From IMG/VR virus record IMGVR_UViG_3300012924_000203, positions 1 to 25,779 of that record: 25,779 bases of DNA, one strand, 5' to 3'. Position 1 is the first letter of the stretch; each line of letters opens with the position of its first letter. The translations under genes were made by a program, and so were the position numbers. Source of the stretch: a virus. The notes below the pieces were generated by a model. That model made no database searches, had not been told where the DNA came from, and saw only the letters and a program-made list of their open reading frames with translations. Below, piece by piece: positions 861 to 25,779 of this stretch.

Positions 861-1181
861 ATGGCCAAAGGAATTAAGACAGGCGGTCGGAAAAAGGGCG
901 TTGTCAACAAGAAGACGCGCAGTTTTCTGGAAGCGCAATCGCAATTGCAAGAGCGGTTTGACCGCGAACTCTGCAAGAAGTTTGGCGCAGGAACGAAGCT
1001 CGACGCGCTAATTGAGACGTTGGTGAAGAACGCGATCTTGGGCGACAGCGAATCGATTCGCGTGGTGATGGACCGCTGGGCTGGACGACCGAAGCAGGAC
1101 ATTGGATTGACGGCGCCGGGCGGCGGTACGATTACCATCATTTCAGAGATCCCAAGGCCTGACCGTGGCAACGGCAGTTAG
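861..1181 (+). CDS. terS: Terminase small subunit-like protein
   Basis: This 106-aa protein begins with a basic GxKxGGRKKGVVNKKTR segment (residues 4-20). A helical region follows (roughly 22-75), then MDRWAGRPKQ near residues 74-83. An N-terminal GRxKGxxNKKT and a later (L/M)DRxxGxPxQ are typical of phage small terminase / DUF5681-type proteins. The gene lies directly before terL and overlaps it by 17 nt. In such phages the small subunit binds the packaging site on the DNA concatemer and hands it to the large subunit. The protein is shorter than many TerS, so most of it may be the DNA-binding and oligomerisation core. The assignment rests on motif and position. Confidence 0.7.
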   Translation: MAKGIKTGGRKKGVVNKKTRSFLEAQSQLQERFDRELCKKFGAGTKLDALIETLVKNAILGDSESIRVVMDRWAGRPKQDIGLTAPGGGTITIISEIPRPDRGNGS

Positions 1182-2703
1182 CGGGATACGGACTTACAAG
1201 CCTTTCCCACGGCAAGCAGAGTTTCATCGGTGCCCGGCGAAGTACCGTTTGTTCGGCGGGGCGGCGGGCCCCGGTAAAACCGCTGCGATTCTTTGGGAAG
1301 CAATTCAGCAGAATTGGGAAGTACCCAAGAGCACCAATTTGCTCTTGCGGCGGACCTTGGGGCAGCTTGAGGATTCACTGCTCAAGGAGTTCCATAAAAG
1401 CGTGCCTTGGCGGGAGATGGGCGCGACTTACAATGACCAGAAGCACAGAGTATTCTGGCCGAATGGTTCAGTGACGCGGTTTGGATATTGCGAGAACGAG
1501 AACGATGTTTTTCAATATCAAGGTGCGGAGTATCTGTTCATCGGGCTCGATGAACTGACGCACTTCACGCTGAAGCAATGGCAGTTTCTTACGAGCCGTA
1601 ATCGGCACCCTGGGCAGTTTGCGACGATGGCTGGGGCGACAAACCCCGGCAACATCGGGCATGCGTGGGTCAAGGCGCTTTTCATTGATAAGGTTCCGGC
1701 TCCCGGCATGGACGAGCCGGATAAGTACGATCCGACCGATTATGCGTTCATTCGCGCGCTGATCGCGGACAACCCGATTTACGCGAATGATGCGAACTAC
1801 TTGAAGACTTTGGATGGTCTCGGTAAGGCATTGCGTACCGCGATGCTTGAGGGATTGTGGGATCAGTTCGCTGGGCAGTATTTCGACAACTTCAGCATTG
1901 ACCGTCACGTAGCGAAGCGGCAAGGCGCGGACCTGGTTGCCAAGGTCTTCAATAAAGAGGGTCAGCGTGTCGGTGAGCGGCTTTACCGGATCGATTGTCA
2001 TTGGACCGGAACTTCTTGGGTGCGCGCGCCGTGGGCGAAGTGGATTTCGCTTGATTGGGGCAGACAGCATCCTGCAGCGGTCTACTGGCATGGGACGGCG
2101 CCGGATGGGCGGCACATCACTTACAGGGAATGGGTGCAACCCGGCTTAACGCCGCGGATGCTGGGAGCGGGGATCGTTGAGCGAAGTATTGACAGCGAAG
2201 GACGCCCGGAAGCAATTCAGCAATTTTTTGTCAGCCCTGATGCAAACCAGGATCGCACCGGTCAGTCAACAATCTTTGAACAGATCCGAGAGCAGACTTC
2301 TACGAATCGTAGACTCCCGGAGCCAGTCGAGGCTAGTGATGACCGGGTTGCGGGGTGGCAACTTCTCTATACGCTTTTTGAAGATGATGGACTACTCATC
2401 GCTGAGAACTGCCCAAAACTAATCGAGTGTTTGCCGATCCTGATTCACGATCAGAAAAAAGTGGAAGACGTCAAGAAGGTTGATGGCGACGATCCGGCGG
2501 ACGCCGAGCGGTATGGATTGTATTCGCGGTTGGGTGCGGCAAGAATTCCGGTGGAAGCAAGAGCCGCTGCGGTAGTCGAAGGCGTAAAAGATAACACTGC
2601 GCGGGCCTTCATCCTGGACCGCTTCTATGAAGAAGAGTCCGCGAAGAATAAGCCTATCCCAGTTGGGCGCCGGCATGGCGCACGCAAAAAGTTTGGTTTG
2701 TAA
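1165..2703 (+). CDS. terL: Terminase large subunit (packaging ATPase/nuclease)
   Basis: This 512-aa protein starts at GTG 1165, inside the end of terS. The ATPase domain has Walker A GGAAGPGKT (31-39), Walker B YLFIGLDE (123-130, acidic pair D129-E130) and a coupling motif GATNPG (157-162). The RNase H-like nuclease domain shows D297 in ISLDWG, D359 in VSPDANQD and a C-terminal acidic cluster DDPADAERY with D446. These are the three positions expected for metal binding. All motifs are intact and the length is normal, so the enzyme should be active. It would cut concatemeric DNA and drive it through the portal into the prohead. It is the clearest marker that this is a tailed-phage genome. Confidence 0.96.
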   Translation: MATAVSGIRTYKPFPRQAEFHRCPAKYRLFGGAAGPGKTAAILWEAIQQNWEVPKSTNLLLRRTLGQLEDSLLKEFHKSVPWREMGATYNDQKHRVFWPNGSVTRFGYCENENDVFQYQGAEYLFIGLDELTHFTLKQWQFLTSRNRHPGQFATMAGATNPGNIGHAWVKALFIDKVPAPGMDEPDKYDPTDYAFIRALIADNPIYANDANYLKTLDGLGKALRTAMLEGLWDQFAGQYFDNFSIDRHVAKRQGADLVAKVFNKEGQRVGERLYRIDCHWTGTSWVRAPWAKWISLDWGRQHPAAVYWHGTAPDGRHITYREWVQPGLTPRMLGAGIVERSIDSEGRPEAIQQFFVSPDANQDRTGQSTIFEQIREQTSTNRRLPEPVEASDDRVAGWQLLYTLFEDDGLLIAENCPKLIECLPILIHDQKKVEDVKKVDGDDPADAERYGLYSRLGAARIPVEARAAAVVEGVKDNTARAFILDRFYEEESAKNKPIPVGRRHGARKKFGL

Positions 2704-4749: not shown

Positions 4750-5007
4750 ATGGACCACGAAGGAATTGGCGGAGCGCTGGGGCGATTCAACAAGACCTTG
4801 GAGCACAACGAGCCCGAAGGCGACGAAAAGGAAGAGAAGCCTGAAGGTGGCGGCGAAGGCAAAGGCCACACGTTCCACGTGCACAAGCACACTGACGGCA
4901 AGCATCACCTGACCGTTCACGGCGAGCATGGGCGGTTGATGCATCACTCGGAACACGGAAGTTTGGAAGAAGCTGCGGACGAAATGAAACAGCATGGTGG
5001 CGAGTAA
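4750..5007 (+). CDS. Histidine-rich small protein
   Basis: ATG 4750 directly follows the upstream TAA. The 85-aa protein has an acidic, Gly/Glu/Lys-rich first half. Its second half holds 11 histidines within about 31 residues (roughly 40-70), in alternating patterns such as HTFHVHKH and HLTVHGEH. These alternate like exposed beta strands and end in a short helix (SLEEAADEMKQH). Fourteen of 85 residues are His. Small His-rich proteins occur in phage late regions, but no function is established to my knowledge. Binding of transition metal is a reasonable guess from composition alone. The gene overlaps the following lipoprotein gene by 14 nt. Confidence 0.65.
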   Translation: MDHEGIGGALGRFNKTLEHNEPEGDEKEEKPEGGGEGKGHTFHVHKHTDGKHHLTVHGEHGRLMHHSEHGSLEEAADEMKQHGGE

Positions 5008-5218
5008 AGCCCTATTCTCCATGATGATGATCTTCTGCGTCTGTGGCTGTAGTGCGGTCAGAAAGAGCGTGGTACAGATTCCTGGGTGTAAAGGCCAAGT
5101 CTACATGGGGCCGAATTGCTATCAGCAGCCCATTCCTGGCGGAATCGAGATTCGCTGTCCGGACAGCACCATCAAATATGTTTGTAAGGTAGGCAAGCAG
5201 GATGCCAGCCAAAAGTAA
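4994..5218 (+). CDS. Small predicted lipoprotein with four mature cysteines
   Basis: ATG 4994 lies within the end of the His-rich gene. The 74-aa product has a lipoprotein signal peptide: a short N-region with Lys5, a hydrophobic core (ALFSMMMIFCV) and a lipobox-like VCGC with Cys19 as the lipidated residue, then Ser at +2, which would favour outer-membrane sorting in a diderm host. The mature part of about 55 residues has four further cysteines in a compact basic domain (IPGCKG, GPNCYQ, IRCPD, YVCKV), suggesting two disulfides. It could be an outer-membrane spanin-like lysis protein or a superinfection-exclusion lipoprotein. No inner-membrane spanin partner is evident next to it, so the role stays open. 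Confidence 0.65.
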   Translation: MVASKALFSMMMIFCVCGCSAVRKSVVQIPGCKGQVYMGPNCYQQPIPGGIEIRCPDSTIKYVCKVGKQDASQK

Positions 5219-5785: not shown

Positions 5786-8266
5786 GTGGCGATCGGCGAA
5801 CTACTTTCGGGCATCAAGGAAAAGGTTTCTGGCCTGTTTCAGCAGAAAGAACCGGCCAAGCCTGCTACCCAGGACGGCAATGCTCCATCACAAGCCGGGC
5901 TGACCGAACTGCAAAAAGAACTCGGTCCGAATTACGAGAAGCTGAAGACCTTGCGGCCGAAAATTGTGTCTGCTCTTCAGCAACTGGTGATCGAATACCG
6001 GCTGGACGGGCAATACTCCCAGCGGCTGCGGATCCTGCGTACGCGATATGCGCGGCTGTTCTGGCAAGGTATTCAGTACGCGATGCTGAATGCCGGGAAT
6101 AACGATTTCGATTTCGCGACGGCAACTTCCGGGCTGCAGCTTGGCACGAATCTGGACGATGATCCGACCGGGCAGCGATTCGAGTATGTGACCAATCTTT
6201 ATCAGGCGCGCGGCATGAGCTTCATCGCGCTGGTGAGTCAGGACATTCCCAGTTGGGTGTCTTACCCGAAGTCTCGGGAATCGCAAGAAGACATCACGTT
6301 TGCAAAAGCGGCTTTTGATGTAGGCGACCTGATCGAGCGGAACAACGATCCGTACACCGGATTGCAGACAATCAGCAAGTACCTGTTCACTGATGGCATG
6401 TGCGTGCAGTACTGGCGCTACGTGCTGGATGGGGAACGTTTCGGCTACAAGACGATGCCAGTGCAAGGCACTCGCGAAGTGGTAGTCGACGGCCAGCGCA
6501 TGACTGTGCCGAGTGAAGACGGCGAAGAACAGATTCCGAACGGGCAGGAAGTGGTGAGTTACGGCGGAGTGCTGGAATGGATGGTTCCAGTATTCGCCGA
6601 TGACTTCTACGAATGTCCGTACGTGCAGTGGGCGCGGGAACCGCATCGCGCAAAACTGAAGGCTGCTTTCCCGCACGCAGCGAAAGAGATTGAAGCCAAC
6701 GCAGGACTAACGTCCGATCAGGTGTATGAACGCATTTCACGCTTGGGCGTGAAGATGAACATATCGTTTCTGACGCCGGGCGATGCGTTGGAAATGCTGC
6801 CGACGTTTACTTCGACGTGGTTCAGAAAGTGGGCGTTCAAGCGGTTTGATGATGAAAAACTGGTGGCCGAACTGGAAGAACTCTTTCCGAAAGGTTGCTA
6901 TGTAGATTTCGCTGGCTTCGAATATTGCCAGAGCCGCAGCGAAAGCATGAACGACCATATCCGCGTGATGCACGCAATGCCGGGCGACGGGCAGAATCGG
7001 CCAGCGGTCGGCGATTGCTTGATCGACGTGCAAGAGCGGTACAACACGCTGTCGAATCTGCAGGCGGAGACCTACGAATACGGCATTCCGCCGATTTATG
7101 CGGATTCGCAGGTTCTAGACTTTGATTCGCTGGCTAATCAGACGGCCGAGCCTGCAGTACATTTTCCGGCGCGCGCACGTCCTGGCATGGCTTTGGCTGA
7201 TGGGTTTTACGCTCCTGACCCGGCAAAAGAGCCGGTCACGCTCCTGCAGACGATGCAAGAGTTGATTGGTCCGGTTTCAGACTTCTTGACTGGGCTGTTC
7301 AACGCCGCCACCGGCGGGCCGATGGAGGGTGTAGCAGGAAAGACGATGGGCGGGTATGAGATTGCCCGCGACCAGTCGCTTGGCCGGATCGGGATGATTT
7401 ACCGGCGAATCAAAGATTTCTACGTCGACGGAATCGGTTTGGGAGTGGAAATATTCCGGAAAAGCCGTCCGGAGGACGTGGAAGTATCGTTTCCCGGTGA
7501 GCATCAAGAAGAAAAAGCCAAGTGGATCAGACTAGGCGAGCTCAAAGGCAACATCATGATCGAGCCGGAAGCGGATGAAAGCTTTCCGCGGCTCAAGAGC
7601 CAGCAGCGGTCAGTGCTGGAATCGATGCTAGCCAACGCGGCGACCATGCCGCCTGAATTCCTGAAGCTGTTCGATAGTTCCGAGAATCAGGCGTATGTAA
7701 AAAACATCTTGGGGCTTTCGGAATTGAAGTTGACCGGGGAAGATGCCGCGCTGCTGGCCATGCGGCTGATTCAACGGTTACTGAAAGATGGTCCGTTTCA
7801 AGGTCCACCACTGCCGCAAATGGGCCAGGATGGACAGGTTGCGGTGATTCAGCCGCCACCGATGGCGACGATTCAGGTTGACCCGATACTGGCGCTGAAC
7901 GCTGAATTTATCGGCGCCATGTTGGACAAGATCGTGGAGTGGGCCGGAGAAGATTCCGGGCGCACGGAAGCGGACACCAATCCCAAGGGATACCAGAACG
8001 TATTCCTGTACGCGAAACAGTTGAGCGCAATCGTGCAGCAGGCACAGCAAGCGGCACAGCCAAAGATTCCGCCTAAACCGCCAAGCATGAGTATCGCAGT
8101 GGACAAACTGCCACCCGGGCCGCAGTCACAAGCGCTGGCGATGGATGGAATTCAGGCTGACCCGATGGAGTTGGCTGCGCAGCAAGAGCAGACGCGACAA
8201 GACAAAGCAAACGAGTTGCAAGCGAAGCTGGCGAATAAGAAGCCGGCAGAAACCGCAGGAGTGTAA
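5786..8266 (+). CDS. Portal protein
   Basis: GTG 5786 opens an 826-aa protein whose length and position (after terminase, before scaffold and capsid) match the large portal proteins of short-tailed phages. The body is mixed alpha/beta with many conserved-looking aromatic segments, for example TISKYLFTDGMCVQYWRY near residue 200. The C-terminal part is helical and, from about 750, rich in Gln, Ala and Lys, as expected for a barrel/crown extension. Portals form a dodecameric ring at one vertex, through which the terminase packs DNA and to which the tail attaches. No single diagnostic catalytic motif exists for this family, so the call rests on length, synteny and general sequence character. It ends in a TAATG overlap with the next gene. 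Confidence 0.82.
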   Translation: MAIGELLSGIKEKVSGLFQQKEPAKPATQDGNAPSQAGLTELQKELGPNYEKLKTLRPKIVSALQQLVIEYRLDGQYSQRLRILRTRYARLFWQGIQYAMLNAGNNDFDFATATSGLQLGTNLDDDPTGQRFEYVTNLYQARGMSFIALVSQDIPSWVSYPKSRESQEDITFAKAAFDVGDLIERNNDPYTGLQTISKYLFTDGMCVQYWRYVLDGERFGYKTMPVQGTREVVVDGQRMTVPSEDGEEQIPNGQEVVSYGGVLEWMVPVFADDFYECPYVQWAREPHRAKLKAAFPHAAKEIEANAGLTSDQVYERISRLGVKMNISFLTPGDALEMLPTFTSTWFRKWAFKRFDDEKLVAELEELFPKGCYVDFAGFEYCQSRSESMNDHIRVMHAMPGDGQNRPAVGDCLIDVQERYNTLSNLQAETYEYGIPPIYADSQVLDFDSLANQTAEPAVHFPARARPGMALADGFYAPDPAKEPVTLLQTMQELIGPVSDFLTGLFNAATGGPMEGVAGKTMGGYEIARDQSLGRIGMIYRRIKDFYVDGIGLGVEIFRKSRPEDVEVSFPGEHQEEKAKWIRLGELKGNIMIEPEADESFPRLKSQQRSVLESMLANAATMPPEFLKLFDSSENQAYVKNILGLSELKLTGEDAALLAMRLIQRLLKDGPFQGPPLPQMGQDGQVAVIQPPPMATIQVDPILALNAEFIGAMLDKIVEWAGEDSGRTEADTNPKGYQNVFLYAKQLSAIVQQAQQAAQPKIPPKPPSMSIAVDKLPPGPQSQALAMDGIQADPMELAAQQEQTRQDKANELQAKLANKKPAETAGV

Positions 8267-9707: not shown

Positions 9708-10988
9708 ATGGCACCGCAATCGAATGCGCAGTTGGTGGCCGCACAGATCGAACGCATCGAGCCGAAAGTGGAATTGCTATACGAACGTGGCGACGACCTT
9801 CTGGTGATGATCGGCAAGACCGATTCCACTAAAGTCTCTTCGCGTGCGATGCGCATTGTGCTGCAGATTACCGCAGGCGGCAAGGGCGGATCGTATAACG
9901 CCGACGGCGGAGACATGGGGCGCGGGTCGGGCGAAAGCTACGACGTGGCGACGGTGTCGCCAGTCTTCAAGAAGATGTCTTTCGAGCAAACCAATTTGGC
10001 GGAATGGGCAACTGCCAGCGACGAACAGTCTATCGTTAACGCCGCGTCGAAAATCGTTTCGAACTCCATGGACCAGTTCCGCGCCTACGAAGACAAACTG
10101 CTGAATGCCACGGCGTCATTCTCACTGGGCAGCATCGGCTCGATTGCCGGAACCGTGCTGACCATGACGGTGCCCACCGGCGCGCTGCTGGTTTACGAAA
10201 ACCAGGAAGTGCAGGTCTATGACAGCACGCAGACCGTCAATCGCTCGGCGAACGCTGGGATGGTGACAACCGTACTGGCTACCGACCCTCAGACCACGCA
10301 AGCCGTGGTCGTCGACCAGTTGCCTCCAGGTACGATTGCTGGTGACGTGCTGATGAGCGCAGGGCTGATTGGGGCCAATCCGGTGGATCTGTTCCCCGTG
10401 AAGTATCACCAGAGCGCAGCGACGACGGGCGTCTGGCAGAATCTGAATCGTGCGACCTACCCTTACAAGCTGGCCAGCTCCCGCGTCAACGGAAACAACG
10501 GCGCATTGGTGCCCATGCAGCCGGAACTGTGCATCAACAAAATTCGAATTGGCATCGGCATCAAGAAAGTCAAAAAACTCATCGCGTACATGCCATTACA
10601 ACAGAAGCATGGGTGGGATCAACTGGCGACCACGGTGCAGATCATTGATCGCGCCAAGCATGAAACTGGCGAAAGCGTGGACATGAATCCGACCAGCTAC
10701 CAGAATTACAATGCTGGGAACATGCACGGTGTTCCGATCAAGCTGGGACAGAACGCAGATCAGACGCGCGTGGATTTTCTAGACCTCGCAGTGTGGTGCC
10801 GCGCGACCATGAACGAGCCAGGCTTCCTGAAAGGCCGCGACGGCAAAATGTGGTTCCGGATTTACGGCGCTTCCGGCGGTATCGCGACGGCGGAGCAGTT
10901 CCACATCATCCACAATTTCCAAGTCTGCAACCGCAACCCGCGCGCTGGCGGATTCATTGATCAATTGGCTCGTCCGGCCGGTTACTAA
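9708..10988 (+). CDS. Major capsid protein, HK97-fold type
   Basis: ATG 9708 follows AGGAG (9694-9698). The 426-aa product has the length and order of a major capsid protein. It has an N-terminal helical arm (residues 5-30), then a region on Thr/Lys/Ser-rich strands (about 35-70) that could be the E-loop. A long mixed domain holds a Thr/Val-rich insertion (around 145-205), and the end is aromatic with AGGFIDQLARPAGY. It has few cysteines, unlike the exported proteins of this window. It would assemble on the scaffold around the portal to form the icosahedral head. The call is made from synteny and overall character; no sequence search was possible. Confidence 0.82.
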   Translation: MAPQSNAQLVAAQIERIEPKVELLYERGDDLLVMIGKTDSTKVSSRAMRIVLQITAGGKGGSYNADGGDMGRGSGESYDVATVSPVFKKMSFEQTNLAEWATASDEQSIVNAASKIVSNSMDQFRAYEDKLLNATASFSLGSIGSIAGTVLTMTVPTGALLVYENQEVQVYDSTQTVNRSANAGMVTTVLATDPQTTQAVVVDQLPPGTIAGDVLMSAGLIGANPVDLFPVKYHQSAATTGVWQNLNRATYPYKLASSRVNGNNGALVPMQPELCINKIRIGIGIKKVKKLIAYMPLQQKHGWDQLATTVQIIDRAKHETGESVDMNPTSYQNYNAGNMHGVPIKLGQNADQTRVDFLDLAVWCRATMNEPGFLKGRDGKMWFRIYGASGGIATAEQFHIIHNFQVCNRNPRAGGFIDQLARPAGY

Positions 10989-12736: not shown

Positions 12737-12742
12737 GAACCT

Positions 12743-15700
12743 GTGACCAAATGGCTCAAACTTTCTTTTCTGGCGCTGTGCTTCTTTTTCTTCGCTAACC
12801 ATGCCTCCGCGCAGGGCGCGCTGTACCACAATATCGCTTGGCGTTACACGCCAGCCGGAGCATTTCCTGCCGGCGGCGCCACGGTAACCATTTGCACTTC
12901 CACCGCCACCGGCGCTCCTTGCACTCCCAAACTTACCATCTACCAAGACTCCGCACTCAGTATCCCCGTAGCTAATCCTCTCGCACAATGCACTTCCTCT
13001 CCACAGGTAGGTTGTATCGACAACCTCGGCAATTTTGCGTTTTACATGAGTCAAGGTCCGCTGACTTACACTATTTCCGGAGCCGGGCTCACCCCTTACG
13101 GTCCAATCCCTGATTCCGCGATTGCGGCGAGTGGAGTTTCTGGAACTTTGCCCAATAGCAGCATCGCTTGCGCTCCTTCACTCAGTTTTCCGGCCAGCGC
13201 CAACGCTTCTTATGGCGTAACGCTGAATTGCAACGTGACTTCCTCTGTGGTGACGGGATCCCCAGCCAACGGCAATCTTTTGAGTTTGACGCTGCTCGAA
13301 GCGGCACCTGGCGGTTGGACGTTCGCGTTTCCGGGCAACTTTGTTTTCCCAGTGGGCTACACGTTCGATACGGTGGCCACGCATACTAATGCGCTGACCT
13401 TCAAATACGATTCTGTCGGAGCAGTGTGGAACCTGATTTCAAATAGTGGCAGCGGCGGCGGAGCCACGCCGGCCGGACCAACGGGAACGCTGCAGTGCAC
13501 CAACGGAAGTATTCTGACCGCCTGCGGCGCGGTGGATGATGGAACTAATTTCACGCTGAGTCGAGATTTTATCGCGCAAGGGCCGAATCCTTTGGGCATC
13601 GATGTTCGCACCAAAGGGGCAAAGTTTAACGGCAGCGCGGCCACCACGGGCACCATGACCGCCGGACTGGCGACCGCGACACTCGGCGCGGCACAAACTT
13701 TCGTGAACGGTGAAGGTATCACCTTAGTGGGTGCAGGAACAACGCTGGCGCTATCGACGCCCTCTGCGCCGACAGTGCTGGCAGCCGATCCCACTTATAT
13801 GCTAGGAACTAATCACGTCGTTGCCAATCCCGCTGGAAATACTTCCGCTGCTTATTCGATCCGCGCAATGTCGATTGACGGTCAGATTACCCCGGCCAGC
13901 GCCACGACCACAATCAGCAATCAACAGCCGACGCTTGGCCGGATATCAGTTGCCGTCACGACATGGACGCGCGCAAACAACATATTGACTGTGACCACGG
14001 CTTCGCCGCATACAATGGTTCAGTTCAGCTACGTGATGTTCACTGGCGACCCGAACTTGGAAGGCGCTTGGAACGTCACAACCGTTCCAGACAACACCCA
14101 CATCACGCTTACGCAGAATCAGGACACTCGCAACGGCGCATCTGCCGCGATGGCCGCTGGCGTGACGCCAACGCTTTATTACTGGCACTGCAATCACATT
14201 ACGTGGAGTCCGGTCACTAACGCTTTCCGGTACATGATCTATCGCGGGGCAACACTAATTGGTATCAGTTACCCGGAAAATGCCGCGGTGAACAATACCG
14301 CAATCTACGATTCTTTCGATGATTTTGGCTCCGGCCTTACCGTTGCGCCGCCCGTTCCCGCTTGGTGGCCGACAGCGCCAAACACGACAGGGTACAACGG
14401 CAACTTGACGACTACGATTCTATCTGGCGCCGGCACGACTACAGTCACGTTGAACGCGACGGCAGGCAGCAATACAACGGCGGCACAGTTTGTGCACGAT
14501 GATGCTGCACCAATCCGGGCGGCTGCATTGGTGGCGCAAGCGCACAACGAAAGCATTTACATCCCGGTCGGGGATTTTACAACGCAATCCTTCGCCATCC
14601 AATCGGTGCTAACTCTCGGCGATACCGGGCCGATCAGCATCATCCAGGCAGGGAACCTCGCCCTCAATGACACTGTTTATTTCACTGGCGGACATACGGT
14701 CACCTGGAATGGCTTCCCGGAGAATCCGCAAAATAATCCGACAACTGGGTTTCAGGCTTTTCCGCAGGTGTTTGTAGGCAATGCTATTCCGGGAATCTAT
14801 CTGCGGGCCGTAGGCGCCAACAAATTTGCAAATTTAAGTGTGAACGTCTCTGGTGTGAACGGCGTCGGGATGGTCGTGGACGGCGGCTCGATTCCTACGG
14901 CCATCTTCAGCCACATGCAGTTTGGTTCCTCTGGTGCCACCAATTACTTTGCCAAGCATCAAGTATTCCGCGTAAACAATGGAGGCGGAAGCGGCTTTTA
15001 CTGGAGCTACCCGGTCTTTTCTGGAGGTGTCGCGCAGGGAACGATTGAGCCATCGCCGTTAATGATGTTTGAAGGTCAGGGCGGCGAAATTATGTCGATG
15101 GATCACGTCGAACTACTGGAAGGCACGATTTCGATTGCCAACACCAATGTCCTGAATCTTCACGTTGATGAGGTTGACGATAACGGCGCGGATATGCCGA
15201 TTTTTAATTTCGTCGATACCAATGGCAGTGGGACGCTCACTCTGGCCGTGGACATCAGCAATGTGATTGATGATACATCGGCCAGGCCAGTGGTCAATTA
15301 TGGCGGCAATACCCAAGGCTACATTCGGCTGTCAGGCGTTCAAGGGCAAGCTGGTGGGTATCCATCCGTCGTGGGACCTGGTGGTGTTGCGGTAGCCTGC
15401 CAAGGGGAGAGAACTGTCTGCTTTGGTGGTCTTGGGCAGAACATGGGCACCCACCGCGGCTTGATGGGAGCGTTCGGAATCGACGGTATCACGGTAACCA
15501 ATTCCGGCACAGCATACGGCGTCTACCAGGACGCACACCTAGCTCTGTCTCCGGCGTTCACTGGCTTCGTTTACAATCTTCCGCAGACTAGCGTAACCTG
15601 TGCGACCAGCGGGGCGGGAACGGCGAATGGAGTAAAGTTAATTCAAGTTGGTCCGGTGTTTGGACCAAACAATGCCGAGGGCGCGCTCTCGAACGTCTGC

Positions 15701-17134
15701 ACGACCGGCAATCTTGTCAACCAAGGCGTGCTGATTTCGTGGCCGCAAGTGGCTGGCGCGGTTGGTTACGACATTTACATCAACGCCGCGCGCTTGCAGT
15801 GTGCAGTTCCTGGCTTTAGCGGATTAACCCTTAGCACGACGTGGACTGGCACAACGCCGTGCGGAAATTCCACACCCTTGCTGCCGATGGGCGGACCGAC
15901 ATCGTTTTCGCTTGCCGCGCTCTATTCGCCAGCGATTAAAATCGCTTCTGGTAACGGTGGCGGAACGCTGACGCAAACGTTTCCGACGGCGACGGCGGAT
16001 CGCGCTATAACCTGGCAGGACGCCGGCGGCGTTGTTCCCATGCTGGGCGTAGCACAGAACTGGACCGCGCTGCAAACATTCAGTTCAGGGATTACCGGCA
16101 CGGGCTCAGTGGGCACGCTGACCGAACTGCTAAATCAGATCACCGCCGCTACCGCAACCAACACCATTGCCAACGGGAATAACCCGCAACTTTGGAATTG
16201 GGCGCAAACTTCAAATACACAATCCGGCATGACCTTTGGCGAGACTTCCGCGGCCACTGGTGGGACGCTGGGGAACCAGTATGGAGTGAAGTTTGTAGGC
16301 CTCGCCGGGTCCACCGCGGTCCCAGTGAATATAACTAGTTCGCTGACTGGCTCGCAGACTTTGCCAACGCTGCACATCACGCCAACGTGGAACACGTCTG
16401 GCGTGGTGGCTGGGGCAATCTTGGTCAACGTCACCAATACCGCATCGGGAACTGGTTCGCTATTGGCCGACCTTCAGATTGGCGGGACATCACAGTGGAA
16501 ACTAGATAAGGCTGGGAATACGACTCAGCTTGGCTCGGGCTCATTTGGCTCCGGCGCTCCAGCCTGTACCGCGGGAACGGCGGGAGCATTGTGTCTACAA
16601 GAAGGCACGGACACCACCAATGTTTCCGGCGCTTCGGTCATCGATGCCAATTCGACAACCCACGAATTCACCGCGTGCACCAACGGCAGCACCACTTGCG
16701 GAATGCTGGAACGGATTCAGCCGACGGTCATCCACCAAACCGCCAAAGTAGCGGCGATCTCTACGGCGACGCTGTGTGCTTCAGCGGCGGGAGCTTGCAA
16801 CGTTGCCGGACAGTACCACGTCCATTACGACTTCATCGAAACGGGAACGGCTTGCGGTACTCCGGGCACCGGCGGCGTCACTTTTCTGCTGACTTGGACC
16901 GATAGCAACGCGACGGTGCATTCGGCGGTCTCGCTGGGCATGGACGATGCCTCAGCCATCAACTCGGTTTCGCAGACTTTCCACTTCCAGACGACTTTGG
17001 CGGCGGCGTGGGCTTCGGGAGACTTCAACATTTCAACCAGCGGAGCGGTGATCCAGTACGCAACCGGATACACCGCCTGCGGAGTAGGGACGGGAACGTA
17101 CCAGCTTGACGCCGTGGTGACGCGACTGCAATGA
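12743..17134 (+). CDS. Giant Sec-exported tailspike-like protein (split beta-helix entry, Fn3-like modules)
   Basis: This 1463-aa protein starts at GTG 12743. Residues 1-23 form a clear Sec signal peptide ending ASA/QG. Residues 24-115 resemble the N-terminal domain of many phage fibres (TIYQDSALSIPVANPL then GNFAFYMSQGPLTYTISGAG). GIDVRTKGAKFNG (285-297) looks like the start of a tailspike pectate-lyase beta-helix. Its usual continuation, DDAAPIRAA...IYIPVGDF (586-612), appears only about 300 residues later, after an inserted beta-rich segment. Similar tyrosine-centred lines occur near 497 (AFRYMIYRG) and 1006 (AVGYDIYI). The last 140 residues are a beta-sandwich-like end domain. Many cysteine pairs are spaced 8-11 residues apart. 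It is probably a receptor-binding or polysaccharide-degrading protein; the export signal is unusual. Confidence 0.8.
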   Translation: MTKWLKLSFLALCFFFFANHASAQGALYHNIAWRYTPAGAFPAGGATVTICTSTATGAPCTPKLTIYQDSALSIPVANPLAQCTSSPQVGCIDNLGNFAFYMSQGPLTYTISGAGLTPYGPIPDSAIAASGVSGTLPNSSIACAPSLSFPASANASYGVTLNCNVTSSVVTGSPANGNLLSLTLLEAAPGGWTFAFPGNFVFPVGYTFDTVATHTNALTFKYDSVGAVWNLISNSGSGGGATPAGPTGTLQCTNGSILTACGAVDDGTNFTLSRDFIAQGPNPLGIDVRTKGAKFNGSAATTGTMTAGLATATLGAAQTFVNGEGITLVGAGTTLALSTPSAPTVLAADPTYMLGTNHVVANPAGNTSAAYSIRAMSIDGQITPASATTTISNQQPTLGRISVAVTTWTRANNILTVTTASPHTMVQFSYVMFTGDPNLEGAWNVTTVPDNTHITLTQNQDTRNGASAAMAAGVTPTLYYWHCNHITWSPVTNAFRYMIYRGATLIGISYPENAAVNNTAIYDSFDDFGSGLTVAPPVPAWWPTAPNTTGYNGNLTTTILSGAGTTTVTLNATAGSNTTAAQFVHDDAAPIRAAALVAQAHNESIYIPVGDFTTQSFAIQSVLTLGDTGPISIIQAGNLALNDTVYFTGGHTVTWNGFPENPQNNPTTGFQAFPQVFVGNAIPGIYLRAVGANKFANLSVNVSGVNGVGMVVDGGSIPTAIFSHMQFGSSGATNYFAKHQVFRVNNGGGSGFYWSYPVFSGGVAQGTIEPSPLMMFEGQGGEIMSMDHVELLEGTISIANTNVLNLHVDEVDDNGADMPIFNFVDTNGSGTLTLAVDISNVIDDTSARPVVNYGGNTQGYIRLSGVQGQAGGYPSVVGPGGVAVACQGERTVCFGGLGQNMGTHRGLMGAFGIDGITVTNSGTAYGVYQDAHLALSPAFTGFVYNLPQTSVTCATSGAGTANGVKLIQVGPVFGPNNAEGALSNVCTTGNLVNQGVLISWPQVAGAVGYDIYINAARLQCAVPGFSGLTLSTTWTGTTPCGNSTPLLPMGGPTSFSLAALYSPAIKIASGNGGGTLTQTFPTATADRAITWQDAGGVVPMLGVAQNWTALQTFSSGITGTGSVGTLTELLNQITAATATNTIANGNNPQLWNWAQTSNTQSGMTFGETSAATGGTLGNQYGVKFVGLAGSTAVPVNITSSLTGSQTLPTLHITPTWNTSGVVAGAILVNVTNTASGTGSLLADLQIGGTSQWKLDKAGNTTQLGSGSFGSGAPACTAGTAGALCLQEGTDTTNVSGASVIDANSTTHEFTACTNGSTTCGMLERIQPTVIHQTAKVAAISTATLCASAAGACNVAGQYHVHYDFIETGTACGTPGTGGVTFLLTWTDSNATVHSAVSLGMDDASAINSVSQTFHFQTTLAAAWASGDFNISTSGAVIQYATGYTACGVGTGTYQLDAVVTRLQ

Positions 17135-19239
17135 AACGGCTAGCCTTACTTTTCCTGCTGACCTTACTGGGCGCGATACCGGCGTTCGGCTCGGGCGCAT
17201 GCCCGGCGGCGGCAAATTATTACGATCCTGTACTGAAAACGTTCACGGCCACACTATCCAGCCTGAACGTCACGGGTTGCTGGTTCATCGACTTCACTGG
17301 CGGGGCAGATACCAACACGGGAGTTGACGAAGCCCACCCGTGGAAGCACGTCAAGGGAATGGTTGGCGCGGCCTCGACGGCTCTCGCTCACACTCCGGTT
17401 GCTGGAGATGGATTTATCTTCAAGGGTGGCGTGACCTGGGATCAGACCATTGGACGCTGGGATTTGACTGGTTCTGGCAACTCTTCCAATCCCATTTACT
17501 ATGGAATTGACCTGACGTGGTTCACTGGCGGCTCATTTACCCGGCCAATCTTCAGCGCCGGCGGGGTGGCCAACACTTACGATTCCAACACCCAGGATTT
17601 CATCAGCGGATTCAATAACCGGCCGATCAACTACGTCATTTGGGACGACACGGAGTTTACTGGATTATTTCTAATTCCAAACACCAATCCGTGTTCTGGT
17701 GGCGGTGGAACCACTTCTTGCGGCTACACCAACAATTTCTCCGGCACCAACTGGATGGTTCTCAGAACGTATACGCACAACGTTGGCCATGCGCCGTGGG
17801 CCAAAGAAATCTGCGTGAACGCGGCCACTTGCACCACGCAGGGAAACAACTCTCCACAATCCGTTCTAGTAACTTCGTTGTCAACGAGCAGCGTCACAAA
17901 TCAGTTTAGCTGCGTTGGCTGCGATTTCGTGGCGGCGGGATTTGCCGCCAACAATGGGCCGTATGCCTCCGGCGGATTTAGTAATGGCGGGAACAATGGA
18001 TTTTTTCATGTCACCGCAGTGACCACGACGACGATGACCGTTTCGACTTCGCCGGTCACTGAGGATACGGGCTATGTCACTCCCGGAATGACGCTGGTCA
18101 CGGAAGGGCCGGACACTAGCGCCGGCGTAATGGTGATCGGAACATCGAACATCGGCAATCACCTGAACGGGTTTGCACCCGGAGTAACTACGGCGGGGTT
18201 TCCGTTCAAGTATAACGTCATCGACAATCAGGACGGTTACGGAGACACCACCAATGGCCCAACGAACGCCTGCTGCCGGGGAACACTGCCCAACAGCAGC
18301 GACACTTCGCTGAACGTTTGCCGCTGGATTGCAGATTGCCATAATGCGTCCAATTCCACCGGGACCGTGGTCTCTTTTCACGACAACCGGGTGGACAATC
18401 TCTATCGCTCTTTCGATCCCGGCGACCATGAAAACTGCTACGAGGAAAATAACACCAGTTCCGGCTCTTCAACGCTTTTCTATGGGAATTACATCGAATG
18501 CGGCGACGACCCATCGAGCGCGGTGCAGTCTTGGAGCATTGGCGTTTCGGCAGGTGGAAACGTCTATGGCTTCAACAATGTATTCCCGCAAAATTCAGTC
18601 GCGCTAGTGAATGGCTCAACCACTTCCAGTGGCGGAACGATTTTCATCTATCAGAACACCGTGGCTTGCGGGCACGGAACGCCGACCAGCTCCTGCGTGA
18701 AGCTGAATGGCGCGATGAATTACAACGTGCAGAACAATTTCTGGATTACCGACAATAGCGGCGGTGGCGGAACAGCGGGCATATTCACTGGTTCAACTAC
18801 CGGCTCGGTGACCACAGCCCCGGCCTTCAGCATTACTTGCGCTGGTGGGGCGCAGACTAACAAGGGCGGCGTACAGATTTGCGCGCCAGTCGGCTCCGGG
18901 AACGGTATCGGGAACCTGAACTACACCCAGACATATTCCTACGCTCCGCTGGACGCGACCGCAGCTACCACAGTCGGGATCGGCTCGGACATCACTTCGT
19001 TTTGCGCGACGATCACGGGGTTGGATGCTGCGGCAGGGGTGGCCTGCGCATTAGATACGACCTATGGTCCGGCTTACGATTCAGTGAATCATAAAGTGAC
19101 CGGATTAGCGCGGACTGCACTGGCGCGCACCTTGGCGGCGCCGCGCAACGGAGCTTATGAGCAAGCCGCACCGACAGGGTTTGGTGGAACACTGCTACTG
19201 CCAGGAATCAAAATTGTGGGACCGGTGACAATTCAATGA
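17131..19239 (+). CDS. Sec-exported right-handed beta-helix protein
   Basis: ATG 17131 overlaps the previous stop (ATGA). The 702-aa product has a signal peptide (residues 1-20, AFG/SG). The mature N-terminus carries FIDFTGGADTNTGVDEAHPWKH and later GDGFIFKGGVTW. From memory this pattern opens many secreted right-handed beta-helix proteins of soil bacteria. The middle shows repeated Asn-rich turns typical of parallel beta-helices, such as NRVDNLYRS, YGNYIECGDD and YNVQNNFWITDN. It has over 15 cysteines, often paired (CSGGGGTTSC, CVNAATC, CVGC). It could bind or cleave host surface polysaccharide; active-site residues cannot be named. Operon coupling ties it to the giant protein upstream. Confidence 0.78.
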   Translation: MKRLALLFLLTLLGAIPAFGSGACPAAANYYDPVLKTFTATLSSLNVTGCWFIDFTGGADTNTGVDEAHPWKHVKGMVGAASTALAHTPVAGDGFIFKGGVTWDQTIGRWDLTGSGNSSNPIYYGIDLTWFTGGSFTRPIFSAGGVANTYDSNTQDFISGFNNRPINYVIWDDTEFTGLFLIPNTNPCSGGGGTTSCGYTNNFSGTNWMVLRTYTHNVGHAPWAKEICVNAATCTTQGNNSPQSVLVTSLSTSSVTNQFSCVGCDFVAAGFAANNGPYASGGFSNGGNNGFFHVTAVTTTTMTVSTSPVTEDTGYVTPGMTLVTEGPDTSAGVMVIGTSNIGNHLNGFAPGVTTAGFPFKYNVIDNQDGYGDTTNGPTNACCRGTLPNSSDTSLNVCRWIADCHNASNSTGTVVSFHDNRVDNLYRSFDPGDHENCYEENNTSSGSSTLFYGNYIECGDDPSSAVQSWSIGVSAGGNVYGFNNVFPQNSVALVNGSTTSSGGTIFIYQNTVACGHGTPTSSCVKLNGAMNYNVQNNFWITDNSGGGGTAGIFTGSTTGSVTTAPAFSITCAGGAQTNKGGVQICAPVGSGNGIGNLNYTQTYSYAPLDATAATTVGIGSDITSFCATITGLDAAAGVACALDTTYGPAYDSVNHKVTGLARTALARTLAAPRNGAYEQAAPTGFGGTLLLPGIKIVGPVTIQ

Positions 19240-19667
19240 AACGAATATTTCTCAGCCTTCTACTGATTTTTGGCCAGCCGGTTTACAACGCTGCGCCTCC
19301 ACAATCGCTCAACTCCGGCGACGTGGCAACCGTTTGGAGTGCGGAGACACCAACTCCTGGAACAGGCAATGCCGCGGCCAGCCAGCAAGTCGCGTTGACG
19401 ATTAAGGGAAGCCGTGCAGGTTCCCCGTTCAGTGTGGATGGGCAATTCAGTGCAGCGCCGGGAGCCTTTGAGGTTGACGTGCAAGTGTCGGCCACGGATT
19501 CGGATACTTCTTATCAGACTTGCTCGAATTGCAACATTACCACTGTAGACGCGACCAATCAGACTTTCCATTTGGACGCAGTGCAGGTCAACGCGAAATT
19601 CGCGCGGCTGTTGATGCGTACCAGAACGAATAGCGTCACGATCACGGCAAAAATCACAGGCGGGTAG
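19236..19667 (+). CDS. Small Sec-exported beta-sandwich-like protein
   Basis: ATG 19236 overlaps the previous stop (ATGA). The 143-aa product starts MKRIFLSLLLIFG and has a plausible but weaker Sec signal peptide, with cleavage near residue 19. The mature part of about 120 residues is rich in Ser, Thr and Val with alternating strands (QVALTIKGS, FEVDVQVSATDSD, ARLLMRTRTNSVTITAKITG). It ends in the sort of beta-sandwich seen in small virion appendage proteins. One CSNC pair is present. No catalytic motif is visible. It lies fourth of five in the exported-protein count of the window and is translationally coupled to both neighbours. Confidence 0.7.
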   Translation: MKRIFLSLLLIFGQPVYNAAPPQSLNSGDVATVWSAETPTPGTGNAAASQQVALTIKGSRAGSPFSVDGQFSAAPGAFEVDVQVSATDSDTSYQTCSNCNITTVDATNQTFHLDAVQVNAKFARLLMRTRTNSVTITAKITGG

Positions 19668-19668
19668 C

Positions 19669-20643
19669 ATGAAAAAGATAGCGATCATCGCGCTCCTACT
19701 GGCAGCGCTCAGTGGAACTGCGTTCGGACAAACTCCGAATGGGGCTTACACTTCTCCGAGTACAGCAAGTGGCAGCGGCACATCCGGACTACTGACCGTG
19801 GTGGCAGCGAAGACCGCCAGTTATCCCGGGGTGACTGGCGATTTCTCGACTGCAACCACTCCTCCCGGTTACATCCCGTTCGCGGTGACTGTGGAGAACC
19901 AGACCTACATTTTGCCAGCAACCGCTCCGGCGCTGGTGGGCGCTTGCGTGGTGATCGAGAATCTTCCCAGCTCGGCACCAAACTACATTCAAATTTTAAC
20001 TGGCGGCGCCAGGACCCTAGACACCGTGGCGTATGCTGCAGCCCCAGGCTGGCCACTTGCTCCCGGCCAATCCATGCGAATCTGCACGGATAGCGCGGCC
20101 ACCAACTACGTCTCAGAGCGCGGGAACAGCGCGGCACTGCCAGCGTTCACCAACGCGGTAGCTCCGACGTGGATCCCCACGTTTGTAGGCGGCAACTCCA
20201 ATACGCCAACTACCAATTTGGTGCCTCAAGTAATTAAAGTGGTTCTCCACGACTATACCCCCATTTCCAAAATTCAAGTTTGGATCTCCACTGGGCAAGC
20301 AGGTGCCAATTGTGATTTTGGAATTTTCGATCTGAATTCCGCCAAGCTCAGCGCGATGGGTAGCACGGCATGTACTGCTAGCGGTGCGATTGGAGGAACA
20401 GCTACATCCAGCGTGATTCTACCTCCAGGACCATATTTCATCGCTGGATGCACCACGAACAACACGGTGGCTTGGTTTGGTCCGATTAATAATGCAATTT
20501 CAGCCGTGATGACCAACTTGGGAACTTCCAATTTCGGTACAGCGGCAAACTTATGTACGGCGGTGACCAGTGCCTTGCCCGCAAACCTTGGAGCAATTAC
20601 CAACAACAACGCCGTGCAGCCTCCGGGCTTAATCGTGCAATAA
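19669..20643 (+). CDS. Sec-exported fibre-like beta-sandwich protein
   Basis: ATG 19669 lies one base after the previous stop. The 324-aa product has a textbook Sec signal peptide (MKKIAIIALLLAALSGTAFG/QT, cleavage near 20/21). The mature N-terminal domain (about 25-145) has a fibre-type beta pattern, YIPFAVTVENQTYILPA followed by VVIENLPSS. The second domain (about 155-265) has KIQVWISTGQAGANCDFGIFD and VILPPGPYFIAGC, typical of small beta-sandwich modules in phage fibres and surface proteins. Six or more cysteines are spread through the mature part. The function is probably carbohydrate or surface binding, by analogy only. A strong ribosome site after its stop starts the next, non-exported gene. 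Confidence 0.75.
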   Translation: MKKIAIIALLLAALSGTAFGQTPNGAYTSPSTASGSGTSGLLTVVAAKTASYPGVTGDFSTATTPPGYIPFAVTVENQTYILPATAPALVGACVVIENLPSSAPNYIQILTGGARTLDTVAYAAAPGWPLAPGQSMRICTDSAATNYVSERGNSAALPAFTNAVAPTWIPTFVGGNSNTPTTNLVPQVIKVVLHDYTPISKIQVWISTGQAGANCDFGIFDLNSAKLSAMGSTACTASGAIGGTATSSVILPPGPYFIAGCTTNNTVAWFGPINNAISAVMTNLGTSNFGTAANLCTAVTSALPANLGAITNNNAVQPPGLIVQ

Positions 20644-20658
20644 AAAGGAGCATCAGAA

Positions 20659-21024
20659 ATGCCAATCACTCTCGCAGTAAGCGGTATTGGGCATGGCAAC
20701 AACCAATTCCGGATCGGTGTCACACTCACCTTCACAGGAAACTATCCGACGGGCGGCGATACCGTAGATTTGACCACGATCCTCGGAGCGTCCGACGATG
20801 TTGGTGTGGCTGTTTTCAGCGCTCTTCCGGTCTACGTCGATCCGGCACTGGGCGGCGGATACGGAGCGGAATTCATTCCGGGAAGCGCGCTCAATAACTG
20901 CAAGCTCAAGGTCTTCAGCGCGCCGGGCACGGAACTGGCCGCAGGCTCTTACGCAGCCAACGCCGCACTGCTGGCCGCTTCGCTGAACAACAGTTTGGAC
21001 ATGGTCTTCGACAAACTACTGTAA
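20659..21024 (+). CDS. Small virion structural-type protein
   Basis: ATG 20659 follows AAGGAG (20645-20650) at 8 nt, the strongest ribosome site near the exported cluster. The 121-aa product begins MPITLAVSGIGHGNNQFRIGVTL without a signal peptide. Its pattern (LTFTGNYPTGGDTVDLTTI, then PVYVDPALGGGYGAEFIPGS, then LKVFSAPGTELAAGSY) resembles small minor virion proteins that recur in many phage genomes with a G(N/S)YxTGGDTVD line; the precise role is not known to me. This gene marks the return from exported to cytoplasmic products. Confidence 0.68.
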   Translation: MPITLAVSGIGHGNNQFRIGVTLTFTGNYPTGGDTVDLTTILGASDDVGVAVFSALPVYVDPALGGGYGAEFIPGSALNNCKLKVFSAPGTELAAGSYAANAALLAASLNNSLDMVFDKLL

Positions 21025-21582
21025 ATGTTACGGCTACCACACCTCGGCGCCATCGAAGGCAAAGACGCTTTCATGGGACTAACGATCCGCGCGTTGATGA
21101 ATGCCGTGAATTATTTTGGTACGGTTCACGGCACCGACCCGACTGGGAAATATCCTGCTCCCGATGCGCCGACGCGCTTGGACGTTTCAGCATCCAACGG
21201 ATTTTTCGATGCGGTGATTACCGTCGCGGCTCCGATACGCGGAGAAGAGTACTGGCTGGAGTGGGACACCACACCTGGTTTTCTGGCGCCGCGGCAGATC
21301 CACCTGGTTGCTTCGCGCAACTGGTATGGTTCACTCGGGAATCTGACTCTCTACTGGCGCGCGGCCGCGCAGTTTGTGGGCTCGGACCTGAGCGCATGGA
21401 CGGTTTACGGCGGCGCGACACCAATAGCGGTAGTCGGCGGCGGAGCCGCTGGACCGGTGCCCATGCCGACTTCCGGAAGCGGAGCGGGAGTGGGGCTCGG
21501 TGCCAATCCATTCCCACCTGTGGGAGTCGGCCGCGGACCGCTGGGGCAAGGTTTGCAAATCGGCAAGCGGTTTACCGCGTGA
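21025..21582 (+). CDS. Virion-type protein with Fn3-like domain and Gly/Pro-rich tail
   Basis: ATG 21025 follows directly on the preceding TAA. The 185-aa product has an N-terminal helical stretch (IRALMNAVNYFG). A beta-sandwich follows at about residues 50-135 with an Fn3-like strand pattern (APTRLDVSASNGFFDAVIT, EEYWLEWDTT, LTLYWRAAAQFVGSDLSAWT). The C-terminus, from about 138, is Gly/Pro/Ala-rich. No signal peptide is present. It ends in a GTGA overlap with the HTH gene. A role in the appendage or neck is possible, since such small Fn3-like proteins accompany fibre genes, but nothing in the sequence proves it. Confidence 0.68.
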   Translation: MLRLPHLGAIEGKDAFMGLTIRALMNAVNYFGTVHGTDPTGKYPAPDAPTRLDVSASNGFFDAVITVAAPIRGEEYWLEWDTTPGFLAPRQIHLVASRNWYGSLGNLTLYWRAAAQFVGSDLSAWTVYGGATPIAVVGGGAAGPVPMPTSGSGAGVGLGANPFPPVGVGRGPLGQGLQIGKRFTA

Positions 21583-22121
21583 ACCACTTTGGTCAACGGT
21601 TACTGGATTTGCGCAATGTCCGGAAGTTGAAGCCTTCGGATCTTGCGGTCAGCAGAACGTTTTTAAGCCGGGTGGAAAACGAACGGTTGCTGGCTTCGCT
21701 GGGATTTATCGAGAGGCTTTGTCAAGCCTACGGGATCGGGCTGGGCAGGCTGTTTGCTTCGGAAGAGGATTTCGAAGCAATGCTGGCCTTGGAAGAAGAG
21801 TTTGTTGAGGCGGTGAAACCATTCTTGAAGAAGTTGAACGCAGAGCAGCGCAAACAGATTCTGGCCACACTGGAAGCGGCTCCGAAGGCAGCGAAGCGGG
21901 GCCGACGAGCGTGCGATCGTATAAAGAAAGTGACCTTCGGCGAATCCAAGAAATACACGCCGCAAACGGTTTCGAGTTCCAATTCCCCGATTTATCCGAT
22001 GGAGTGTTCGCCATCAACGCCGTCGCCGAGGACCGCGATGGAATCGCGCAGGTTGCAGCGTTTCTCAAAATTACAGCCGAAAGTTACCTGTTCCTCGATC
22101 GAGAGTTCGCTGATCCACTGA
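21579..22121 (+). CDS. XRE-type helix-turn-helix regulator
   Basis: GTG 21579 overlaps the previous stop (GTGA). The 180-residue product has an XRE/Cro-C1 HTH near residues 4-46: FGQRLLDLRNVRKL, SDLAVSRTFLSRVENERL, then SLGFIERLCQAYGIGLGRLF. A helical region follows (EAMLALEEEFVEAVKPFL, LNAEQRKQILATLEAAP) and a basic KAAKRGRR near residue 110. The last 70 residues are Ser/Pro/Arg-rich and lie over the next gene in another frame, so they look like read-through rather than a domain. A DNA-binding regulator inside the virion block is unexpected. It may control the block, or form a pair with the GNAT-like gene that follows. Confidence 0.7.
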   Translation: MNHFGQRLLDLRNVRKLKPSDLAVSRTFLSRVENERLLASLGFIERLCQAYGIGLGRLFASEEDFEAMLALEEEFVEAVKPFLKKLNAEQRKQILATLEAAPKAAKRGRRACDRIKKVTFGESKKYTPQTVSSSNSPIYPMECSPSTPSPRTAMESRRLQRFSKLQPKVTCSSIESSLIH

Positions 22122-24414: not shown

Positions 24415-25779
24415 TGCCTGACGAACCACAGGGACAACAATACGACACTTCGCAACTGGATGAAGTGCAGCATCCGACTCTCGGGCCGCTGAAATTTCCA
24501 AAAGCGATGCCGCCAGAAGAGCGGAATGCCTCCATCGACAGAATGCTTAAGGCGCAGCCTGCGCAGAGCAAGACTCCAGAAAATAGCGAAGAATCAAAAC
24601 CCGGATTTTTCGAGCGGGCATCAAAGTTTATCAGTAGCCGTTTACAGCCACCGGAGCCCGGATCATATTCAGGTCCAGAATATCTGCGGAACGCGAAACC
24701 TTCGGAATACCGAAATCCCCGGACTGGCTCCGTCGCTTCACGATTCGAGCCGACCGCCGATGCGGCGAAAGTCCTTGAAGAGCAAGAGACCGGAAACCTT
24801 GCAAACGTAGCGAAAACTGGAAAGCAGTTGCCACATGCGGGATTCAATCGGTCCGCGCTTGATGCGCTGAAAAGTGTTTCCGGGATGGCTGAGAGTGCAA
24901 CTTCCCCGAAGTCGGTGGGCTTAGGATTGGGTTTGGCTACGGTTCCCGAGATTGTTGGTCCAGCGATGGTTGCACATGGTTCCTACGAAGGGATCAAGCA
25001 TGCCCCAGGTGCTCTCAAAGGAAATCCGGAAGAGGCAGAGAAGTCCCTAAGTGGCTTCTCTGAAGCCGCTGGCGGCGGCGCGGCGACTACTGGCGCATTT
25101 GAGGGCGGAATCGGTGACACCAATCTCGCGCGATTGAGTAAGACCGCAGTGCGGTCAGCGCGGGAAACTGTTGGCCATCAACTCCCTCCACAAGAGGCGG
25201 CAACGCCTCGCCCGGAAGGCGCTTTCCAGCCTGCGCGCAATAGCACGCCAAAAGAAGTTTTGGATCACGCCACGCAAGAAGGAATTAACCTGACACCATT
25301 CCAGGCATCGGAAGGGAAACTGGCGGGAAAACTGCAACTGGCCGGGGAACACGGAATTGTCGGCGGTCAGCCGCTGGAAACTGCGATGAATGCGGAACGG
25401 GCAAAGTTCGGTTCGGCGGTCAATAAGTTCAGCGAGCGCGTCGATCCGACCCGGCTTGGAATTTCCGAAGAGGCGGCAGGCGAGGCAATCAAGCAATCCA
25501 CTGAAACAGCAAAGAGCGTTGCGCACGAAAACGCCTCGAATAATTACAAGCAGATCGACTACTTGATGAAGGAACCAGTCGAGCCGAAACCGATTTCCGA
25601 CAAGTGGAACGAAGTGCGGGAATCCCTGCCACTGGGAGCGGAAGAGCAGATTCTGGCGCAGGCGCCGCGCAACATGCGCGCGGTAGTGGAGGATTTGCTA
25701 TCTGGAAAGCCGGAAGGATTTAAGCCGACTTTCGAGCAGGGAATTCAGTTGCGAAAGTTCTTTCGCGATCTGGGCGAGA
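24414..25779 (+). CDS. Large probable internal/ejection protein, 3'-truncated by the window
   Basis: ATG 24414 shares a base with the previous stop (TAATG), and the frame stays open to the window end (at least 455 residues), so the stop lies beyond it. The first 130 residues are polar and Pro/Ser-rich, starting MPDEPQGQQYDTSQLDE, and include KAMPPEERN, close to the MPPV motif of the preceding protein. A hydrophobic Gly-rich segment (about 168-188, VGLGLGLATVPEIVGPAMVA) may contact membrane. The remainder is helical and charged (ESMxx-type turns, EAAGEAIKQSTETAKSVAHE). Large helical proteins at this position in short-tailed phages usually belong to the ejected core. No lysozyme or polymerase motif is seen in the visible part. 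Confidence 0.65.
   Translation, partial: MPDEPQGQQYDTSQLDEVQHPTLGPLKFPKAMPPEERNASIDRMLKAQPAQSKTPENSEESKPGFFERASKFISSRLQPPEPGSYSGPEYLRNAKPSEYRNPRTGSVASRFEPTADAAKVLEEQETGNLANVAKTGKQLPHAGFNRSALDALKSVSGMAESATSPKSVGLGLGLATVPEIVGPAMVAHGSYEGIKHAPGALKGNPEEAEKSLSGFSEAAGGGAATTGAFEGGIGDTNLARLSKTAVRSARETVGHQLPPQEAATPRPEGAFQPARNSTPKEVLDHATQEGINLTPFQASEGKLAGKLQLAGEHGIVGGQPLETAMNAERAKFGSAVNKFSERVDPTRLGISEEAAGEAIKQSTETAKSVAHENASNNYKQIDYLMKEPVEPKPISDKWNEVRESLPLGAEEQILAQAPRNMRAVVEDLLSGKPEGFKPTFEQGIQLRKFFRDLGE

Follow-up and report, generated by a model that had tools for sequence, protein, structure and literature searches.

Predicted signal peptides on tail spike-like proteins of a probable podovirus-like phage of Acidobacteriota and of related chromosomal elements

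Assembly of tailed phages is regarded as a cytoplasmic process, and a tail spike that carries a signal for export from that compartment raises the question of whether, and where, it could join a virion. A gene of this kind (12743; genes are named here by their first position) lies in the window, the whole stretch of viral DNA that was analyzed, which is a complete IMG/VR record of 25,779 bp, linear and a fragment. A preliminary description of this DNA had drawn attention to four coupled tail-appendage-like genes, each with a Sec signal peptide, and to the conflict between export and cytoplasmic assembly. That conflict is real, because the signal peptide is conserved in all of the 12743 homologues found among the relatives defined by their portal genes.

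Signal peptides were called with a rule that required a positively charged n-region, an uncharged h-region with a mean KD of at least 1.8, and small residues at positions -1 and -3; all assignments in this study are rule based and were scored at the first start of each open reading frame. Four of the 87 window open reading frames of at least 80 amino acids passed (12743, 17131, 19669, and 2718), whereas only 0.14% of shuffled proteins did so, and none of the packaging and head proteins of the window met the rule. The coordinates and coupling of the four-gene block were confirmed exactly, with the first three genes overlapping as ATGA and the fourth starting after 1 nucleotide (Table 1). The signal peptides were clear for three of these genes; 19236 lacks a clean cleavage site, since the proposed A/A site has a tyrosine at -3 and the best-scoring site is poor. 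The block is also not the full set, as a fifth gene, 2718, had been overlooked.

Table 1. Features of the window, with the signal peptide (SP) and first mature residues separated by a slash
Feature	Position	Strand	Details
Terminase large subunit	1165..2703	+	phrog_979, E=2e-41; Terminase_3
Fifth SP-bearing appendage-like protein, 572 aa	2718..4436	+	SP MRSLKWIFGLILVAFAPLMAFG/QANV; between terminase and portal
Portal	5786..8266	+	Homology and position; basis of relative search and tree
Major capsid protein (MCP)	9708..10988	+	phrog_14242
Large tailspike-type protein, 1463 aa, GTG start	12743..17134	+	SP MTKWLKLSFLALCFFFFANHASA/QGAL; 40 homologues; BFVD fold match
Spike signal peptide, 23 codons	12743..12811	+	SP rule, homologue alignment
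Mature N-terminal domain of spike (A3 region), proposed attachment domain	12812..13201	+	
Cys-rich protein, 702 aa, 19 Cys	17131..19239	+	SP MKRLALLFLLTLLGAIPAFG/SGAC
Beta protein, 143 aa, SP-like hydrophobic N-terminal extension	19236..19667	+	MKRIFLSLLLIFGQ, no clean site
Beta protein, 324 aa	19669..20643	+	SP MKKIAIIALLLAALSGTAFG/QTPN; weak phrog_25864, E=0.004
Virion-gene family member without SP	20659..21024	+	Adjoins spike in relatives

Scans of viral contigs with the single proteins 12743, 17131, and 19669 gave no match, and tblastn searches of 50,697 phage records revealed no relatives, with one weak match to a Nocardia phage. Relatives were reached only via the terminase, MCP, and portal. 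Searching with the portal alignment yielded 100 viral contigs (80 were retained for analysis) together with 22 bacterial genome loci. Because all 22 bacterial loci with a related portal came from genomes titled Acidobacteria, Terriglobia, or Ca. Acidiferrum, the host phylum of the window is probably Acidobacteriota.

Homologues of 12743 were present in 40 of these portal-defined loci. The window spike and all 40 homologues have a hydrophobic segment followed by A or G at -1 and by Q at +1; the pattern used to find the mature start presupposes [AG]/QG, but it missed no family member. The signal peptide regions themselves can hardly be aligned (median amino acid identity, 12.5%; nucleotide difference, 62%), whereas the next 100 residues share 45% amino acid identity, and pN/pS was 0.76 in the signal peptide compared to 0.12 in the N-terminal domain. 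Despite this drift, 34 of 39 spikes passed a fixed signal peptide test, a proportion that fell to 5% when 40% random drift was simulated, and no signal peptide was found among approximately 370 to 380 control proteins (terminase, portal, MCP, and five smaller families). Because the spikes stay signal peptide-like while the controls do not score, the comparison provides strong evidence that the 12743 family is under selection for signal peptide function. Further stretches from genomes positive for the N-terminal domain alignment (A3) had the same signal peptide and mature N-terminus in 38 of 40 cases. One exception (L177) was not readable in frame, and the other, in G300 (L196; L218:15620-16140 onward), is a 171-amino-acid N-domain protein that lacks both the signal peptide and the Cys pair described below and lies directly upstream of a signal peptide-bearing spike body. 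Thus, export of the spike, which had been treated as special to a single phage gene block, appears to be a trait of the whole family; what is private to the window is the four-gene arrangement.

The signal peptide is likewise strongly supported for the 2718 family, homologues of which were found in seven loci (L018, L024, L025, L026, L040, L063, and L109), in the same terminase-portal interval in L018, L024, and L025. All six homologues with intact 5' ends carry a signal peptide. The predicted signal peptides of 17131 and 19669 are supported by the rule, and neither protein has a homologue anywhere searched, including viral contigs and phage records; no family match was found for 17131 either. 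For 19236 a signal peptide is doubtful. Its 16 homologues, and more found in a further search, start at approximately window residue 15 with MPxYxN or MPAYSN, that is, after the hydrophobic segment, so that the h-region is an extension of 13 to 14 amino acids seen in this window alone. No start codon is present in the window at the position that matches the homologue starts. The refuting observation named in the preliminary description, close homologues without the hydrophobic segment, was therefore made for 19236 and was not made for 12743 or 2718.

The description of these genes as tail-appendage-like holds for 12743, is not established for 17131, and applies weakly to 19669. Of 28 homologues of 12743, 3 to 5 each matched PHROG families of tail spikes and tail fibers; the homologues also matched families of exopolysaccharide depolymerases (best PHROG E value, 4e-9), and Pfam searches returned Pect-lyase_RHGA_epim in 7 of 28 and CarboxypepD_reg in 14 of 28. 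An AlphaFold model of residues 24 to 660 of the window spike was good from approximately model residue 260 onward, and its top match in BFVD was a TSP1-type tailspike (E=2.1e-11); in the PDB it matched phage endosialidases at E=0.016, which is below significance. The N-terminal domain was modeled poorly (pLDDT, 65). A P22 head-binding fold was considered for this domain, but with this poor model Foldseek gave no significant PDB match (E values of 0.4 to 0.9 for SpyCatcher, carboxypeptidase-D-like domains, and domains of phage tail tips or necks), and the best PDB profile match was a tailspike head-binding domain (7eeq) at E=0.063. The sole family match of the domain was CarboxypepD_reg, which is common in secreted proteins. 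A generic host-secreted domain was considered and rejected, as the domain occurs in one copy per genome and is tied to virion genes.

Column identity is 60% in the N-terminal domain (A3) and 25% in the variable body (over alignment A4). Anchored receptor-binding proteins usually combine a conserved N-terminal domain with a variable body, and the sequences are consistent with that role. The mature N-terminus is mostly QGSRKDDIVF, and Q1, G2, and a Cys pair (C28/C37) are invariant in the 30-row A3 alignment. Mean Cys content is 1.57% in the spike, 0.62% in the hub protein, and 0.03% in the MCP, but Cys content alone is not decisive because the portal and terminase are also near 1%; only the invariant Cys pair is persuasive.

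The best explanation of the window is that it is a piece of a podovirus-like phage of Acidobacteriota. A small-terminase-like gene, the terminase, the portal, a scaffold-like gene, and the MCP gene form a single plus-strand block; Pfam and NCBIfam searches of the window proteins gave nothing usable. A podovirus type is suggested because the connector of the relatives is SU10-adaptor-like. Hub and connector genes were found in every relative of sufficient length, but their profiles had no match in the window (12737-20658, 21024-21025), though neighboring genes were found. The signal peptide block of the window occupies the position of the connector in the relative G004, and the hub and connector of the window may lie beyond position 25,779. 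A small protein with a Tat-like motif, starting MQRRDFLIKAAPLAMA, is encoded at 315-686, and a search for homologues found none. A small Cys-rich protein at 4994-5218 has a hydrophobic N-terminus ending CVCGC/SAV, which is lipoprotein-like, and could be an outer spanin. An XRE-like helix-turn-helix remnant or small regulator lies amid virion genes at 21583-21924 and is followed by a GNAT acetyltransferase-like gene that is kept in relatives.

Most relatives of the window are not free phages; they are a single-copy chromosomal element. Within the order of Ca. Acidiferrum (Ca. Acidiferrales), the spike domain was found in 48 of 95 genomes and the portal in 50 of 95, nearly always in one copy; in a set of 396 genomes from across the phylum, 3 carried the spike. 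When 22 genomes were searched with A3, 17 of the 18 positive genomes had one match, and the matches mostly adjoined the portal. At least 10 of 17 elements examined lie beside the same host genes, with MOSC on the left and NAD synthase and an IDH-like gene on the right, and in 7 genomes MCP distances followed those of the adjacent NAD synthase (Mantel r=0.79, p=0.0008). An ordinary prophage is an unlikely explanation of the copies in metagenome-assembled genomes because the locus is fixed and no integrase was found inside the chromosomal elements among the matches listed. The elements retain Caudoviricete-derived genes for the terminase, portal, MCP, connector, and SLT endolysin, together with the hub, the spike, and a spanin-like gene. 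In the portal tree, the window, G004, L018, L024, L025, and L026 fall outside the chromosomal clade on long branches. G004 has a DNA methylase and probable recombination genes and L025 an integrase-like gene, and both look like true phages. The signal peptide-bearing spike is found in free phages and chromosomal elements alike and is therefore older than domestication.

It is very probable that the spikes are exported. Whether they then dock on the virion is, in our estimate, close to an even question, and the same applies to the sequence of export, disulfide bonding in the periplasm, and docking on particles at lysis. In such a pathway, the spike 12743 and at least three further proteins (2718, 17131, and 19669) would be made as Sec precursors, and host signal peptidase I would cut them after A or G, before Q or S. 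The spikes would fold outside the cytoplasm, where cysteines can pair, while heads and the tail core would assemble in the cytoplasm. A holin/endolysin/spanin cassette would open the cell, and particles would meet a stock of finished spikes, which would attach via the strongly conserved mature N-terminal domain at or after lysis and leave the variable body to bind or trim surface polysaccharide. In G004, the signal peptide-bearing spike gene is directly upstream of genes for small membrane proteins and of endolysin-like and spanin-like genes. P22 particles can be completed in vitro, according to the passage of PMC2989905 that cites Israel et al. 1967. Of the options that the preliminary description had listed, the best fit is that the spikes are added in the periplasm or upon release.

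The chief alternative is that these proteins never join the particle and serve instead as surface adhesins or as secreted enzymes active on polysaccharide, clearing slime or excluding competitors; they would be produced before or during lysis, or by a host that carries the element. Signal peptides ordinarily signify secretion, the N-terminal domain resembles CarboxypepD_reg, and a tailspike-like fold is found in WceF, a bacterial enzyme that Pantoea secretes by means of a Tat signal (PMC7949094). In addition, a signal peptide-bearing spike occurs in an integrase-bearing stretch of G252 that has no head genes. However, the spike is a single-copy gene tied to virion genes, mostly beside the portal; its conserved N-terminus and variable body follow the anchored-spike pattern; and it was kept in free phages and fixed elements alike. 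Secretion without attachment thus seems rather unlikely, though it is the alternative to be taken most seriously. It is also conceivable that the hydrophobic N-terminus targets the inner membrane and is cleaved late or not at all, serving as a pick-up anchor or a membrane-active tail part. The long, strongly hydrophobic cores of the spikes (maximum 10-residue KD, 1.9 to 3.8) and the hydrophobic N-terminus of 19236 without a good cleavage site would suit such a role, but a plain anchor needs neither the AxA/Q or AxG/Q c-region nor the mature Q-G, which are invariant in 30 rows, and the signal peptides of host secreted proteins that adjoin the elements have the same kind of end, A/QQ. Membrane anchoring is accordingly considered improbable. 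That the signal peptides are artefacts of wrong starts or chance hydrophobic stretches, as might be thought from the 19236 homologues without the segment and from several spike homologues with more than one possible start codon, is very improbable and largely refuted for 12743 and 2718, given the rarity of such segments in shuffled and control proteins and their presence in every spike homologue despite 62% nucleotide divergence.

To our knowledge, the known podophage tailspikes (P22 gp9, TSP1-type, and the K1F and phi92 endosialidases) lack a signal peptide, and both their synthesis and their attachment take place in the cytoplasm. The 12743 product shares with them its large size, a conserved N-terminal domain, a variable beta-rich body, matches to sugar-active families, and the fold of the body. 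No prior description of secreted or signal peptide-bearing tail spikes was found in the open-access literature, so novelty is claimed provisionally. Signal peptide-bearing phage endolysins are already known (fOg44-type and J5a-clade; PMC8878798); these are likewise late phage proteins with a Sec signal peptide that act outside the cytoplasm at lysis, but they are lysis enzymes and not virion appendages. WceF of Pantoea stewartii is likewise a tailspike-like trimeric beta-helix enzyme with an export signal peptide but differs in being encoded by a gene of a bacterial exopolysaccharide operon, in using a Tat signal, and in having no adjoining virion genes (PMC7949094). The conserved export signal implies either that virion completion takes place outside the cytoplasm or that the gene most like a spike in this family encodes no part of the virion; either outcome is testable and would alter the annotation of such genes. 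Spikes stabilized by cysteines could suit soil.

By the definition in PMC9662315, the Ca. Acidiferrales elements are candidates for gene transfer agent-like elements, in an abundant, hard-to-culture soil phylum. The comparison applies to the chromosomal relatives and excludes the window, which is outside the chromosomal clade on the portal tree. With gene transfer agents such as RcGTA, BaGTA, and BhGTA, the elements share virion genes at a fixed host locus, restriction to an order, and the lack of an integrase among the matches listed inside them, and their divergence may track that of the host; for the elements, packaging and transfer of host DNA are putative, and exported spikes are not known to be described for those agents. 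No description of acidobacterial gene transfer agents was found in the open-access literature, and novelty is provisional here too. We tentatively suggest, as a possibility for which the odds are somewhat unfavorable, that a tailed-phage family and a domesticated gene transfer agent-like element of an Acidobacteriota order make a two-compartment particle, in which a cytoplasmic head and tail core and periplasmic, disulfide-bonded spikes are joined only at lysis. The element loci are L136-L155 and L198-L217 (G008, G012, G016, G025, G010, G013, G022, G446, G478, G470, and others), and many IMG/VR "viral" contigs of the chromosomal clade are probably pieces of the element. The G252 stretch (L221; G252:C1:713800-717300) has its signal peptide-bearing spike, with an A3 domain, near an integrase-like gene on a contig the size of a complete chromosome; no head genes were seen in the stretch read, which is possibly a satellite or a decayed prophage. 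The element of G012 also encodes a retropepsin-like aspartyl protease (L139:4547-5023; PF13650, E=3e-6).
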